Part shown: piece by piece, positions 19,187 through 26,397 of the stretch | Layout of the letters: each line of letters begins with the position of its first letter | Numbering within the stretch: position 1 is the stretch's first letter | Source of the DNA: Candidatus Woesebacteria bacterium | GTDB lineage: Bacteria; Patescibacteriota; Microgenomatia; UBA1400; UBA1396 | Reading direction: 5' to 3' | NCBI GenBank assembly: GCA_021208605.1 | Contig: JAJOJK010000011.1 | Location: 1-34,879, forward strand | DNA: 34,879 bases | The notes under the pieces: model-generated | Seen by the model: the letters and a program-made list of their open reading frames with translations, nothing else | The model's database searches: none | What the model was told of the DNA's origin: nothing | Program-made: the position numbers and the translations under genes

Positions 19187-19747
19187 ATGGCTGGACACAA
19201 TAAATGGAGCAATATTAAAAATCGCAAAGGCGCTCAAGATAAACGCCGTTCTAAGGCCTTTTTTGAAGTCGGTAAAATGATTCGCAGTGCAGTGAAAGAC
19301 TCACAAAACGGTGATCCCGACACCAATCCAGCTTTGCGTTTGGCTGTAGATAAAGCGCGCAGCGTGAATATGCCAAAGGAAACCGTTCAGCGGGCTATCG
19401 ATCGTGCGCTTGGGAAAAGTGAAACTGGGGAATCGATTCAAGAAGTTACTTACGAAGGTTACGGCCCGCATGGTGTTGGTTTCTTGGTAATTACGGCTAC
19501 CGATAACGTGCAACGTACGGCCGGAAATATTCGTTTTGCGTTTTCTCGCAATGGTGGATCACTCGGCGGCCCGGGTTCAGTCATGTATCTTTTCAAACGA
19601 GAGGGAGCAGATTTTGTCTCCAATATGATGTTGGATCTTTCACCTGAACAAGGCAAAGAAGTTCAGGCCCTGTATGATGCCTTAGTAGAGGATGAAGATG
19701 TGGAAGAAGTCTATATGAATGCTCGTTGGGAGGGAATGGAGTCGTGA
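19187..19747 (+). CDS. yebC: YebC/PmpR family protein, compact form
   Basis: The N-terminal domain is canonical: MAGHNKWSNIKNRKGAQDKRRSKAFF, then the middle YEGYGPHGVGFLVITATDNVQRT and NGGSLGGPGSVMYLF. YebC proteins were first described as DNA-binding regulators and more recently linked to translation through ribosome stalls. The usual length is about 240-250 aa; here it is 186. By comparison with the E. coli sequence about 58 residues of domain III are absent between YLFKREG and the closing LYDALVEDEDVEEVYMN, in frame. AGGAGAG 6 nt upstream supports the ATG. The TGA stop overlaps the GTG of the membrane-protein gene (GTGA), so translation is coupled. Confidence 0.92.
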   Translation: MAGHNKWSNIKNRKGAQDKRRSKAFFEVGKMIRSAVKDSQNGDPDTNPALRLAVDKARSVNMPKETVQRAIDRALGKSETGESIQEVTYEGYGPHGVGFLVITATDNVQRTAGNIRFAFSRNGGSLGGPGSVMYLFKREGADFVSNMMLDLSPEQGKEVQALYDALVEDEDVEEVYMNARWEGMES

Positions 19748-20511
19748 AGCGACGCGAGAAGTCATTTTTAGGGGCTTTTATTCTGTCGTTGGGCTTGATG
19801 CTCATGCAGTATATTCCTCTCGAGTGGCGTCCGCTCGGTATGGTCATTTTCACGGTGGTGACGTATTTGGTAACTGCCTGGGTGCTGTTTGACAATCTAG
19901 ATGGTGTTGAGTGGATGACTATCGTGCCGATGCCGGCGTTGTACACGGCATCGATCTCATCTTTTTATTTTTTGTTGCCAGAGAGTGTCATTGCCCAAGC
20001 GATTATTGTTTCGATCTTCGGTCTGGGGATGTATGCCTTACTTTTGGCGGGAAATATTTTGACGATCGCCAAGACCCGGACAATACAACTTCTGCGGGCC
20101 GCTCAGGCAGTAATTTTCTTTTTTAGTTTGATTGCGGCTCTGTTAGCCTTTAATACGCTGTTTTCCTTAGGATGGCTGTTTATCTGGAATGCATTGATTG
20201 CCTGGGGAATTGGCATTCTTTTAAGCTTTTGTTTTTACTGGTCCATTCGACTGGGAAAGAATATTAGTCGAGAAGTGTTCGGATTAACTCTGCGCACAGG
20301 TACTTTGCTCGGTTTTCTAGCTGGGATTGTTTCGTTTTTCCCTGGTAATTTATGGCCAACCTCATTGCTTCTCATGGGCGCGATGTACACGATGCTGGGC
20401 GTCGGGCAGTCGGCGCTGGAGGAAAAACTGTTTACGAATACGGTTCGTGAGTATTTGGGCGTGTTTGTGGGTGTGGTGATTATGTTTTTTGTTTTGCTGC
20501 CTTGGAAATAG
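19744..20511 (+). CDS. Polytopic membrane protein, about 255 aa
   Basis: Seven or so hydrophobic helices cover nearly the whole length (for example FLGAFILSLGLMLMQYIPL, MVIFTVVTYLVTAWVLF, IIVSIFGLGMYALLLAG, VIFFFSLIAALLAF, YLGVFVGVVIMFFVLL). It has a basic N-terminus and no catalytic motif I recognise. It looks like the unassigned multi-pass proteins often placed after yebC in CPR genomes. GTG 19744 is chosen because it overlaps the yebC stop as GTGA and has GGAGGG upstream; TTG 19726 is the other option. The stop is followed after 2 nt by the 104-bp inverted-repeat element. Confidence 0.7.
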   Translation: MKRREKSFLGAFILSLGLMLMQYIPLEWRPLGMVIFTVVTYLVTAWVLFDNLDGVEWMTIVPMPALYTASISSFYFLLPESVIAQAIIVSIFGLGMYALLLAGNILTIAKTRTIQLLRAAQAVIFFFSLIAALLAFNTLFSLGWLFIWNALIAWGIGILLSFCFYWSIRLGKNISREVFGLTLRTGTLLGFLAGIVSFFPGNLWPTSLLLMGAMYTMLGVGQSALEEKLFTNTVREYLGVFVGVVIMFFVLLPWK

Positions 20512-20513
20512 GG

Positions 20514-20617
20514 CTCAGAAATATGTTTTCTCTGACGGTACGGCGCGGAATGCGCCTCGATGTGCGCGCGTTCGCGTAAGGAAGCACATGGCCCGCCAGA
20601 GAAAACATATTTCTGAG
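20514..20617. repeat. 104-bp element with perfect 21-bp inverted arms and two inner hairpins
   Basis: Bases 20514-20534 and 20597-20617 are perfect inverted copies of 21 bp; after one mismatch three more pairs follow (20536-20538 with 20593-20595). Inside are a GGCGC / GCGCC hairpin (20542-20556) and an ATGTGC / GCACAT hairpin (20560-20589), which holds CGCG-TT-CGCG. The interior is GC-rich and the arms AT-rich. It directly follows the stop at 20511. It could be a strong 3'-end structure, a MITE-like remnant (no target duplication seen) or a cruciform site. Confidence 0.8.
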
Positions 20618-20644
20618 TCTGAAGAGGGGGCTTTTTTATCTTTT

Positions 20645-20818
20645 AGGCGGCGTTAGGTGTACGCCTTTCTTCTTTTTATCTTTAGGCGGCGTTTGGTGAA
20701 CGCCTTTTCTTTTTTTATCTTAGGCGGCGTTTGGAGTACGCCTTTTCTTTTTTTATCTAGGCGGCGTTTGGTGTGCGCCTTTCTTTTTTTATCTGGAGGC
20801 GGTGTTTTGTGAATGCCT
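20645..20818 (+). repeat. Five tandem hairpin/T-run units, period 37-39 bp
   Basis: Copies of a 22-nt block beginning AGGCGGCG and ending CGCCT lie at 20645, 20684, 20722, 20759 and 20797. The blocks can fold as GGCGT / ACGCC-type hairpins, and each is followed by a C/T-rich run ending in TTTTTATC or similar. Each unit therefore looks like a Rho-independent terminator on the + strand. Between ATC and AGG the number of T falls stepwise: 4, 3, 2, 1, then a changed spacer. Copy 5 is the most diverged. Confidence 0.85.
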
Positions 20819-20911
20819 TTATTTTTGGTTTTTAGCCTGGTGTGGTGATGATTTTTTTTTGGTGGGTGTGAGGAGAGAAGAGGGGAAGTGCGGGGGAAGA
20901 GAGAGGAGAGA

Positions 20912-20956
20912 CCTATAATATTTTGTTAATATCCTATAATATGCGTCCTATATAAT
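20912..20956 (+). other. AT-rich segment with three CCTATA(T)AAT boxes
   Basis: CCTATAATAT at 20912-20921 and 20933-20942 (21 bp apart) and CCTATATAAT at 20947-20956. Each contains TATAAT, so these could be tandem -10 elements for a rightward non-coding transcript, or part of an AT-rich unwinding segment. A purine-rich G tract (20861-20910) lies immediately to the left. No gene follows at close range. Confidence 0.4.
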
Positions 20957-21112
20957 TTATTTTCACGTTTTGTTTTCACAAAAGCGAATGAAACATGGCG
21001 ATGCATGCATGAATGTTTGAGTTTGGCGTTTTAGCCTGGTGATGATGTTTTTGATATAGTTAGATGCGGTTTGAATAGAGTAAGCTGCTTGAATTTGCAA
21101 GAATAGAGAGAC

Positions 21113-21121
21113 TGTGGATAA
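21113..21121 (-). other. Perfect match to the DnaA-box consensus
   Basis: The - strand reads TTATCCACA, the E. coli DnaA-box consensus. A weaker relative (CCATCCACA) is at 21492-21500 on the same strand. One 9-mer in 1.2 kb can be chance. Around it, 21130-21240 can form short hairpins (ACCC-GAAAA-AGGGT and CCTCT-TGGCTG-AGAGG) without a recognised RNA family. Confidence 0.25.
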
Positions 21122-21355
21122 CTTCAAAGAGAGTCGTGGCAGAAAAAACCCGAAAAAGGGTCTGTGACCTCGAGAGACCTCTTGGCTGAGAGGGGTTTGG
21201 CAGTGGTGAGCTGAAAGCGTTATGAAAGCGATGGGAATGGTGATAAGAGAGGATATAGTGGTCATTGTGTGTAAAAATAAGCCGGTTCCACTGCTCTGAG
21301 CGGGTCGGTATTCTTTTTGTGGACTTTTGGGTGTTCGCCGAGAGATCTTGATCTA

Positions 21356-21383
21356 GAGTCGCAAAATGTATATTGTGCGACAT
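21356..21383. other. dif: dif-like Xer recombination site
   Basis: 28 bp: left arm GAGTCGCAAAA, centre TGTATA, right arm TTGTGCGACAT. The arms are imperfect inverted copies (8 of 11 matching); the inner palindrome GTCGCA...TGCGAC is exact. By direct comparison 19 of 28 positions equal E. coli dif, including the whole run AATGTATATT across the centre. The site is about 390 bp upstream of the Xer gene and inside a gene-free region. Xer recombinases bind the two 11-bp arms and cut at the edges of the 6-bp centre, so the layout fits a chromosome-dimer-resolution site. Inferred, not shown. Confidence 0.6.
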
Positions 21384-21715
21384 GGCGTGGACGCGGAGTG
21401 GGACCTGCTCTGTCGTTGCTTTGTGGCACAAATGGGCATGAAATGTTTTTCTGTTCTATTCCTCGAATAAATAAGCGCGTCCTTCTCTCTCTGTGGATGG
21501 CCGATTCTATTTTTGGAAAATTGTATAAAAACCCGAACGATTTTGGATGTTTTGTCCGTTTTGGCGTATTTGCCTGTTTTTGACCTATTTGTCCTATGAT
21601 GGATTGTCCGTCTTTTCTAAAAAAAGCCTAAAATGGGCCTCTCAGCGCGTCTTAGCCTGGTGGTGTGATATGTTTTAGCATGGAAAGATGTTTTTTGATC
21701 TATTTGACGTGTGCG

Positions 21716-21727
21716 ATGTCGCAGAAT
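21716..21727 (+). promoter_or_regulatory. Xer half-site copy upstream of the xer promoter
   Basis: ATGTCGCAGAAT matches the complement of the dif-like right arm (21372-21383) at 11 of 12 bases. It ends 25 nt before the presumed -10 (21752), so it lies next to the -35 position. It may let the recombinase regulate its own gene. Confidence 0.4.
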
Positions 21728-21751
21728 CTTTTGTTTCGTGGTGACAGATGC

Positions 21752-21757
21752 TACAGT
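21752..21757 (+). promoter_or_regulatory. -10 hexamer TACAGT of the xer gene
   Basis: TACAGT ends 11 nt before ATG 21769, giving a leader of only about 4-5 nt. No Shine-Dalgarno is present. Confidence 0.4.
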
Positions 21758-21768
21758 GAGTGCAGTCT

Positions 21769-22716
21769 ATGGCGAAATCATCGAACGTGCAGCACCTTGC
21801 ATTGCAACAACAAGTCTACGAGTACCTCGAACACATTGAAGTCGAACGGAATTTGTCGTCATTAACACTGCGCGACTATTCTTTGTACTTAGATCGTTTC
21901 GTGCAGTGGGCCAAACGCAAAGACATTAAAAACATGCAGGCGGTTGATTTGCAGACAATTAAGAAGTACCGCCTCTACCTCTCTCGGTACACGACCGAAC
22001 AAGGGGAGAGCTTGTCGGTGCGTACGCAGTCGTACTACATTATTGCGCTCCGCTCTTTTTTGAAATGGCTCATTAAGATGGATGTGAAGGTTATTCCTCC
22101 AGAAAAAATTGATTTGCCCAAAGTGGAACAGGCTGAGGTCACGTTTGTGAAGCCAGAACAAATGGAACGCCTGATGGCTCAGCCAGATATTAGTACCGAC
22201 CACGGACTACGAGATAGGGCGATTTTGGAGGTCCTCTTCTCTACTGGTTTACGTGTTTCTGAGCTGGTCTCGCTCGATCGCGAGCAAGTGGACACCCAGC
22301 GCAAAGAGTTCGGTGTACTCGGGAAAGGTCGCAAAGTTCGGGTGGTGTTTCTTTCGGACCGCGCGGCTCACTGGCTGGAGCAGTACCTGGCGTTGCGGAC
22401 GGATGATTGGTCGCCCGTTTTTATTCGCCACTCGCGCGGTATTGATGTTACCGAAGACGGCGAAAACATGCGCCTCTCTGCTCGCTCGGTGCAACGATCA
22501 GTAGAGAAGTATCGAAAAATGGCCCATATTCCAGTGAAAATTACACCGCACAGCATTCGACACTCGTTTGCTACAGATTTACTGCGCAATGGAGCTGGCC
22601 TGCGTGATGTGCAAGAAATGCTCGGACACAAGAATATTTCCACGACGCAAATTTATACGCACGTGACTCGGCCAGAATTAAAAAAGGTACACGAGAAGTT
22701 TCACAGCCAAAGTTAA
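21769..22716 (+). CDS. xerC: Tyrosine recombinase XerC/XerD-type
   Basis: Site-specific recombinase that resolves chromosome dimers at dif. The N-terminal SAM-like core-binding domain spans about residues 1-105 (LSSLTLRDYSLYLDRFVQWAK). The catalytic domain has the expected residues: Arg in TGLRVSELVSLDRE, Lys in GKGRKVRVV, HxxR in HSIRHSFATDLL, His in LGHKNISTTQIYTHV with the nucleophilic Tyr in QIYTH. At 315 aa from ATG 21769 (GTG 21760 also possible) it has Xer length without the extra domain of integron integrases. It follows a gene-free region with a dif-like palindrome, a linkage seen in single-Xer systems such as XerS and XerH. Whether a second Xer exists elsewhere is unknown. It is convergent with the next gene (6-nt gap). 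Confidence 0.93.
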   Translation: MAKSSNVQHLALQQQVYEYLEHIEVERNLSSLTLRDYSLYLDRFVQWAKRKDIKNMQAVDLQTIKKYRLYLSRYTTEQGESLSVRTQSYYIIALRSFLKWLIKMDVKVIPPEKIDLPKVEQAEVTFVKPEQMERLMAQPDISTDHGLRDRAILEVLFSTGLRVSELVSLDREQVDTQRKEFGVLGKGRKVRVVFLSDRAAHWLEQYLALRTDDWSPVFIRHSRGIDVTEDGENMRLSARSVQRSVEKYRKMAHIPVKITPHSIRHSFATDLLRNGAGLRDVQEMLGHKNISTTQIYTHVTRPELKKVHEKFHSQS

Positions 22717-23529: not shown

Positions 23530-26397
23530 CTACTCTTCTTCCTCATCCAAATCATGCTTGGTGGCCGTGGCGGTGACAATGCTGTCACTCTTTGGCATGC
23601 GCATGAGGATGACGCCTTGGGTTGGTCGCTTGAGAACCGGAATGTTCTTGAGTGGAAGTTTGATAACTTGCGCTTCATGCGTGCTCATGATGATATCTTC
23701 ATGCTCATGCGTGACAATCAATGCTGCCGCGACTTTTCCAGTTTTGCTCGAGATGGATGAGACTTTGACGCCTTGTCCACCGCGTTTTTGCACTGGGTAC
23801 TCGTCGAGTTCGGTGCGTTTGCCCATGCCGCGCTCAGTGATGACCATCAACTGGAAGAAGAAGCGGCGACGCTTGTCTTCTGGCGGGGTTGGGTTGGCTG
23901 GGAAGGCCTGGCCACCGACAACAAAGTCACTTTTCTTGAGCTTGATACCCATGACGCCTTGCGTGTCACGGGAGCTTTCCTTGACTTCGTCTTCGTGGAA
24001 GCGAATACACTTGCCTTCGTGTGTGACGAGCATGACATGGCAGTCACCGTCGGTGAAACGGGTGTACACCACTTCGTCATCGTCCTTCAATGTGATGGCA
24101 ATGATACCGGTGGAGCGAATGTTCTCATACTCACTCAGAGGGGTCTTTTTGACCTTTCCGCCACGAGTAGCGAAGAGTACGAAGCCAGTTTGGTCTTTGG
24201 CGTCTTTCGGCAGGATAAGCATGTTCTGGATGGTTTCGTCGGAGTCTAAGTTGATGACATTGACCAACGCGGTGCCCTTGGACTGGCGACTGCCTTCCGG
24301 AATGTCGAACACTCGGCTCGAGTAGACGCGACCTGTGTTGGTGAACATGAGCAGCGTGTCATGCGTACGGGCGGAAATAATTTCCTTGATGGGGTCTTCT
24401 TCCTTTGTCTTCATGCCCATGACGCCCTTGCCGCCCCGACGTTGCGTGCGGTAGGTGTCGGCGCTGAGACGCTTGATGTAGCCGCCTTCGGTGTAGACCA
24501 CGATGGTGGACTCGTCTGGGACGAGGTCTTCTTCGTTGATTTCTCCGACTTTCCCTTTCACGAGGACGGTCTTGCGATCGTCGCCATAGGTGTCGGCAAG
24601 TTCTTTGGTTTCTTGGCGAATGATATCGAGGATTTTTTGTGGGTGCATCAAAATGTCTTCAATTTCTTCGATGCGAGCCTTGATTTGGGTGTACTCATCT
24701 TGCAGTTTTTGGCGCTCGAGGGCGGCCAGTTTGCGCAGCTGCATATCGAGAATGGCCACAGCTTGGACTTCGGTGAAGCCGTACTTCTCCATCAAGCTGT
24801 TCTTGGCGGTTTCGGTGTCGGCAGACGAGCGTATGGTGGCGATGACTTCGTCGAGAATGTCGAGGGCTTTCAACAAACCTTCCAAGATTGTGGGCGCGAT
24901 CGCGCAGGCCGCGCAGTTCATACTGCAGACGGCGTACCGTCACCAATTGGCGGTGGCGAATGAACTCCATCATGACGTGTCGGATGGTCATGAGTTGCGG
25001 CGTGCCGTCGGAGTTGAGGGCCACCATGTTCATGGAGAAGTTACTTTGCAAGTCGGTGTACTTGAAGAGATTGTTCAAGACAGACTTTGGACGGGAGCCG
25101 CGTTTGAGGTCGATCGCGATGGTCAGACCTTGGCGTCGGACTCGTCACGGATATCAGAGATACCCTCGACTTTTTTGTTTTTGACGAGGTCAGCAATCTT
25201 GACGATGAGCTTGGCCTTGTTGACTTGGTATGGGATCTCGGTGATCACAATCTGGTGACCACGGCCATGCTCTACAATCTCGGCTTTGGCGCGCATGGTG
25301 ATGCGACCGCGACCGGTGGCGTAGGCGTTTTTGATGGCGTCCCAGTCGTAGATATAGCCGCCGGTTGGGAAGTCGGGACCGTTGACGTGATCAAGAATGT
25401 CTTCGAGGGTGGCTTCAGAGTCAAAGTGTCCGGACAATGTTTCGGCAGGAATGTCGGCGGCGTCCTGGCCTTCGAGAGCCTCTGCCGGGACTCGTTTGGA
25501 GTGTCCTTTGGTGATGACGGTGTCGATAGCAGCGGCGATTTCGCGCAAGTTATGCGGTGGGATTTTGGTTGCCATACCGACAGCAATACCCTCGGCACCC
25601 ATTAAGAGTAAGTTTGGCATGCGGGCTGGCATGACGACCGGTTCCTGTTGTGAACCGTCGAAGTTGTCGGCAAACTCGACCGTTTCTTTGTCGATGTCAG
25701 CCAACAGTTCTTCTGAAATTCGGGCCATTCGGGCTTCGGTATAACGCATGGCAGCTGGTGAGTCACCATCGATGGAACCAAAGTTACCCTGTCCGTCCAC
25801 GAGTGGATAGCGCATCGAAAAGTCTTGCGCTAAACGTACCAAGGCGTCATACACAGCGGAGTCACCGTGCGGGTGATACTTACCGAGCACTTCACCGACA
25901 ATACGAGCGGATTTCTTGTAGGAAGAGTTCCAGCGGATGCCCATGCCGTGCATGGCAAAGAGAATACGGCGGTGAACTGGTTTCAAACCATCACGCACGT
26001 CCGGTAAAGCACGAGAAACGATCACACTCATGGCATAGTCCAGATAGGACTTACGCATTTCGTCGACGATTGGTTTCTTGAGGATTAAACCGTAATCGGT
26101 TTTGACCGTTTCGTAGGCTTCGCCTTCTTCGTTGGTGAAGGCGTCGTCGGCGCTGTCATCTTCGTTGCGGTTGTCGTCGTCACTGTTGTCGCTGTTGTCA
26201 TTATCGCCAGAATCGTCAGAAGAATCGTCGGCGTCATAGGCTTCCATGCTGCCAGAAGTATCGACCGATTCAGAGTCGGTTTTTACTTCTTCCGCTACGT
26301 TCTGCTCTGCTCTGTCGAGCAGTTCTTCCAATTCTTCGTTCTGTTCTGAAGAGTCGGTGTTTTCGGTTGCGGGTTTGATTTTTTTGTCAAAAGCCAT
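23530..26397 (-). CDS. gyrA: DNA gyrase subunit A (two apparent frameshifts)
   Basis: Breakage-reunion subunit of gyrase. Seen in order from the N-terminus: an unusual acidic Ser/Asp/Glu/Asn extension of about 100 residues; [29 protein letters not shown]; the quinolone region [19 protein letters not shown] with Ser and Asp at the wild-type positions; the catalytic Tyr in [10 protein letters not shown]; the tower and coiled coil; the GyrA box QRRGGKG; and beta-pinwheel blades. The frame shifts twice. At 25128-25129 one C is missing (restores [17 protein letters not shown]), and at 24888-24889 one T is extra (restores [16 protein letters not shown]). Corrected length is about 955 aa. It lies downstream of gyrB in the same - strand block. 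Confidence 0.95.

Follow-up and report, generated by a model that had tools for sequence, protein, structure and literature searches.

Several dif/Xer systems have been described in bacteria and archaea. In Archaea, a single recombinase, XerA, is paired with a 28-bp dif site of two inverted arms; xer and site are linked in some lineages and apart in others, and the sites are reported to lie 122–144 degrees from oriC, not directly across from it (PMC5357621). XerA has been described as FtsK-independent. The XerCD/dif system of Escherichia coli has two competent paralogues acting at a site of 11+6+11 layout, with one XerC-specific and one XerD-specific arm. The C-terminal RQ-QQ residues of XerD are reported to contact FtsK-gamma (PMC5357621). 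XerH/difH and XerS/difSL again have a single recombinase, and the xerS gene adjoins its site, with XerS also lacking the RQ-QQ residues (PMC5357621). difSL is 31 bp long with an 11-bp centre. Integrative mobile elements exploiting Xer (IMEX) include viral genomes that carry a host-dif-like site with an altered centre or arm.

The system described here, found in 34,879 nucleotides of a Candidatus Woesebacteria genome (the window), is a phylum-wide addition to the dif/Xer kind. The open full texts searched contained no account of dif in CPR bacteria, and the remark of the sequence-only reading that we followed up, that no experimentally described site was known for such organisms, agrees with this. 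A large dif prediction survey from 2011 names other phyla, and "TM7" is absent from its text (PMC3025954). That reading had proposed a dif-like dimer-resolution candidate, which conservation supports on a wider scale, that of the phylum. The features of the window are as follows.

21356..21383, forward strand: candidate dif-like core recombination site, 11-bp arms plus 6-bp centre (conservation, simulation)
21356..21366, forward strand: left arm GAGTCGCAAAA, conserved part GTCG[CT]AAAA (conservation in relatives)
21367..21372, forward strand: central region TGTATA (centres compared across loci)
21373..21383, forward strand: right arm TTGTGCGACAT, conserved part TTGTGCGAC (conservation in relatives)
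20512..21759, no strand: intergenic region containing the site and, at 20632-20826, a 38-bp tandem repeat (ORF listing)
21760..22716, forward strand: xer, tyrosine recombinase of 318 aa with a complete R-K-H-R-H-Y active site (profile, structure and alignment comparisons)

The 28-mer GAGTCGCAAAATGTATATTGTGCGACAT, that is, GAGTCGCAAAA-TGTATA-TTGTGCGACAT, does have the inverted 11-bp arms around TGTATA that were first reported for it. The arms pair with each other at 8 of 11 positions, and the inner arms at 8 of 9. The layout is that of E. coli dif, and a direct count against that site gives 20 of 28 identical positions, including the whole centre; the resemblance noted earlier therefore stands, with its count of 19 corrected. 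In 100 first-order Markov replicates of the window, the best match to E. coli dif was 16–18 positions in 95 (usually 17–18), 19 in four, and 20 in one. Some 4.8 sites matching at 19 or more positions are expected in a 1-Mb genome, where such a resemblance would be unremarkable. Because five simulations in 100 reach 19 or 20, similarity to E. coli dif is by itself weak evidence and only suggestive. It is conservation, rather than likeness to E. coli dif, that makes the 28-mer more than chance.

The site lies 5' of xer, with 376 bp (previously put at about 390) between its end and the GTG start codon at 21760. The intergenic region is ORF-poor, holding short, unconvincing ORFs only. Between the ORF at 19726-20511 and the site are five copies of the 38-bp tandem repeat, with hairpin-like units (GGCGGCGTT...ACGCC) followed by T runs.

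Conservation of the site and its linkage to xer

The 24-bp core occurs once, not many times, in the bacterium's own 1.08-Mb genome (21 contigs). Within three mismatches, it was found in 41 of 89 genomes (its own, same-order relatives, and one same-class genome), compared with 0 of 89 for a reversed control, and among the other order relatives examined, a weight matrix places it close to xer in most. Across the class, the arms are present within two mismatches in 267 of 374 genomes, with few control matches; across the phylum (Patescibacteria/CPR), they are present within one mismatch in 152 of 380, with a near-empty control. The relatives share GTCG[CT]AAAA and TTGTGCGAC arms around a variable 6-bp centre, one per genome, and the site has the general form of two inverted arms of about 11 bp with a 6–8-bp centre, one per chromosome.

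Centres in the order mostly start with G (GTTATA, GTATTA, and GATATA, for example), and T-start centres are present in hosts of other classes. The arms differ consistently by one base (AAAA vs ACAA), and in 71 of 72 loci this asymmetry faces xer the same way; some lineages have perfectly symmetric arms, GTCGCACAA-N6-TTGTGCGAC. The window copy is atypical, having TGTATA as its centre and an arm asymmetry reversed relative to xer when compared with the 71 other loci. A flip of this copy by a virus is not needed to account for it, since three substitutions would turn the site of family f6 into the window site.

At the sensitivity used, the site was not recognisable in some xer-positive families, a point against the dif reading, and no true site was seen in those with divergent Xer (f26, f35, f39). 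Some class genomes have apparent second sites (GTCGCACAAT....GTA.TGCGAC), which were considered as possible integrated elements and set aside on account of their conserved syntenic locus. This element has a conserved 3' flank, TTTGAGGCTAAA, gave no Rfam match in three loci tested, and looks like an unrelated conserved intergenic element.

L338:9954, L341:9947, L342:9927, L345:1995, L346:9829, L347:9980: loci of the GTCGCACAAT element

In 72 loci, the site lies 221–2511 bp from the orthologous xer, always on the 5' side, and thus passes the test that it be kept upstream of xer in relatives. The distance is 6.7–11.2 kb in three genomes of one genus (G010, G036, G022). Site and xer share a contig in about 38 more genomes of the class, again with the site 5' of the gene, at 0.2–5.5 kb. 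In other classes, 62 site-bearing genomes were searched and 59 encode Xer, with orthologues of 43–53% identity whose genes are often distant from the site or placed on a different contig; the 3-kb loci holding the site there gave no match to the window Xer. Four single-contig genomes illustrate the separation, with site and xer at 342 and 180 kb (G605), 119 and 877 kb (G483), 76 and 542 kb (G436), and 225 and 54 kb (G477). No such site was found in 11 kb around xer in a Terrybacteria locus, as would be expected if site and gene are unlinked outside the class. Among the classes examined, linkage to xer is confined to this one, while the site itself is phylum-wide. Phylum-wide occurrence is stronger evidence for dif than the linkage is.

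Site and recombinase also go together in their losses, by co-absence or co-divergence. No Xer was detected at E ≤ 1e-30 in 39 of 374 class genomes. Among 20 of these listed individually, about 13 lack the site and seven have some match to its pattern; in two of these seven, the match seems due to chance or to the unrelated GTCGCACAAT motif. About six xer-negative assemblies, mostly fragmented, do hold the site, which counts against the dif reading. Roughly 72–78% of xer-positive class genomes have the site, a range that reflects the 19 of 39 xer-negative genomes not individually listed, and the association between the two gives a Fisher p of 0.0001–0.0016, uncorrected for relatedness. Three genomes that are 98–100% complete (G039, G162, G170) have neither xer nor site.

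The recombinases and their number

The window Xer comprises an N-terminal SAM-like domain and a catalytic domain. It scores 247 bits with the XerD profile and 245 bits with the XerC profile, both below cut-off, and among solved structures E. coli XerD matches it best (E 1e-39). XerA structures match at E 5e-30 and 8e-29, so the protein is closer in sequence to XerD than to XerA, and the family model XerA_Arch (NF040815) gives 213.8 bits against a cut-off of 220. The XerS model gives 129 bits against a cut-off of 267, and XerH is distant (E 8e-10), which sets the enzyme apart from both the XerS and the XerH type. The site appears to differ in sequence from XerA dif, and its 6-bp centre differs from the 11-bp centre of difSL.

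The site does have a cognate tyrosine recombinase with the full catalytic set: none of R, K, H, R, H, and Y varies among the 86 aligned Xer proteins, a catalytic make-up shared with E. coli XerCD. FtsK with a gamma domain was present in all eight genomes tested, a likeness to E. coli and a difference from XerA. However, the window Xer has KK and EK in place of RQ and QQ at XerD positions 288–289 and 292–293, and these FtsK-gamma contact positions are variable and mostly replaced across the 86 proteins, which counts against the dif/FtsK reading. The ftsK of the window genome is frame-shifted at its 3' end, and two frameshifts that compensate each other, some 200 bp apart, interrupt gyrA (window 23530-26397). 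Together they point to assembly errors of the indel kind. In another genome, four Xer-like tyrosine recombinase matches lie within about 22 kb (G680:C18:27905-49737), besides the main Xer.

The window's own genome encodes one other tyrosine recombinase (25% identical).

L108:9499-10356 (own genome, G000 C7:9499-10356): second tyrosine recombinase

This second protein, whose gene at that locus lies near lexA-like, miaA-like, and ftsH-like genes, is present in nearly all order relatives. Its wide presence, along with the consistent arm asymmetry and its fixed orientation to xer, could fit a dif at which two proteins act, the linked Xer on one arm and the divergent second recombinase on the other, as in XerCD. 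We think this unlikely, because all nine aligned sequences of the second recombinase lack both the hairpin Lys and the HxxR His, with R, R, H, and Y retained, and because the arms are nearly or fully symmetric. The two proteins also part company among genomes, with one that is 99% complete (G064) having xer and site with no match to the second recombinase, and another (G039) having the second recombinase with xer and site absent. A mechanism with a single recombinase is likely the best reading, given the symmetric arms and the one canonical Xer. By this reading, the system differs from E. coli, with its two competent paralogues and its paralogue-specific arms, as the arms here are nearly identical to each other. 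The sequence-only reading had proposed a candidate "single-Xer" system, which is likely rather than certain, the paralogue count having turned up a degenerate second tyrosine recombinase.

Viral copies, chromosomal position, and proposed function

Exact arms were also found in 81 IMG/VR contigs (L147-L227; about 74 distinct contexts), compared with 10 for reversed arms. Of the 81 viral sites, 63 lie outside ORFs, compared with 17% of random positions, and terminases, portals, and head proteins are encoded near several of them. The site is present in viral genomes with no xer detected near it, and cultured phages searched with a 30-mer gave partial low-scoring matches only. Viral centres mostly start with T, whereas those of the order's hosts mostly start with G, and the commonest viral centre is the window's own TGTATA. 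One genome (G020) has an xer-linked site with centre GATATA and a second site beside phage terminase and portal genes.

L343:12311 (G020:C20:100311): second dif-like site of this genome, centre TGTAGA

Judging from these sequences, the 81 contigs are candidate Xer-exploiting viruses of Patescibacteria. They recall the IMEX, but are mostly tailed-phage contigs with both arms intact, and integrative use is only a candidate. Many tailed patescibacterial viruses may carry the host's dif arms with another centre, so that host Xer would resolve viral multimers, or integrate the viral genome only into hosts whose centre matches, without recombining it with the host chromosome otherwise, within a phylum-wide dif code. 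We put this forward tentatively, as a possibility that falls somewhat short of probable. If true, a shared host-virus dif code could help assign viruses to uncultured hosts.

The viral copies also bear on whether the site serves in the first place for attachment of viruses or other mobile elements using Xer, with the chromosomal copy left by a past integration. The shared arms, the second site in G020, and the prevalence of the window's centre among viral sites all point that way, but a site that each chromosome has once, whose place is conserved throughout the class and which no prophage flanks, has the look of a host site, and we hold this origin to be very improbable. To our knowledge, mobile use of dif is secondary in all known cases, which also counts against it (cf. 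PMC5357621). Harder still to credit, and rejected here, is a role as operator or promoter in the control of xer: the repeat is 5' of xer in every linked locus, but at spacings from 0.2 to 11 kb, and the same arms occur without an adjacent xer in other classes and in the viral genomes, so that arms unchanged far from xer are most naturally read as those of a recombination site whose enzyme acts in trans.

In 13 closed genomes, the arcs between dnaA and the site are 60, 73, 102, 116, 128, 129, 129, 133, 134, 138, 146, 147, and 152 degrees (measured to xer, not the site, in G301 and G373). The site is thus 116–152 degrees from dnaA in 10 of the 13 and in the origin-distal half in 11 (binomial 0.011, relatedness uncorrected), a position that resembles archaeal XerA/dif rather than E. 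coli. Unlike E. coli dif, it is not reliably at the skew switch: GC skew was sampled over 34–50% of four genomes (G021, G068, G002, G005), and in this partial sampling the site was not at the cumulative maximum in G021 (73 degrees) or G068 (60 degrees). KOPS-like octamers gave no clear signal of a polarity switch at the site in two half-sampled genomes. In two single-contig genomes, G005 (L248-L267) and G002 (L288-L307), GC skew has one sign in all sampled stretches, reaching -0.49 in G002; one-sign skew is unusual for bidirectional replication. The skew and octamer results count against the dif reading.

With its single copy, phylum-wide arms, class-wide linkage to an intact Xer, accompanying FtsK-gamma, and mostly origin-distal position, the site is very probably the chromosomal dif of a CPR bacterium, where the nearby Xer most likely resolves dimers, probably with FtsK. 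Homology and genomics are the grounds for this function, and for the binding, cleavage, homomeric action, and FtsK control that it would entail. In the mechanism we infer, the Xer encoded 376 bp away would bind both nearly identical arms, forming a homotetramer on two sites, and strands would be exchanged within the 6-bp centre. Chromosome dimers arising from homologous recombination would thereby be resolved, with the FtsK translocase probably assisting at division.

Patescibacteria make up a very large, mostly uncultured share of bacterial diversity and have ultra-small cells. Natural transformation and Tn-seq are available for a genetically tractable Saccharibacterium (PMC10633639). With a site found phylum-wide, the chromosome terminus, segregation, and dimer resolution in these reduced genomes become open to direct test, and the site can be used as a marker for genome assembly and for viruses using host Xer. 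As a single-Xer mechanism is likely, the finding would extend the few known single-recombinase systems by a bacterial phylum.
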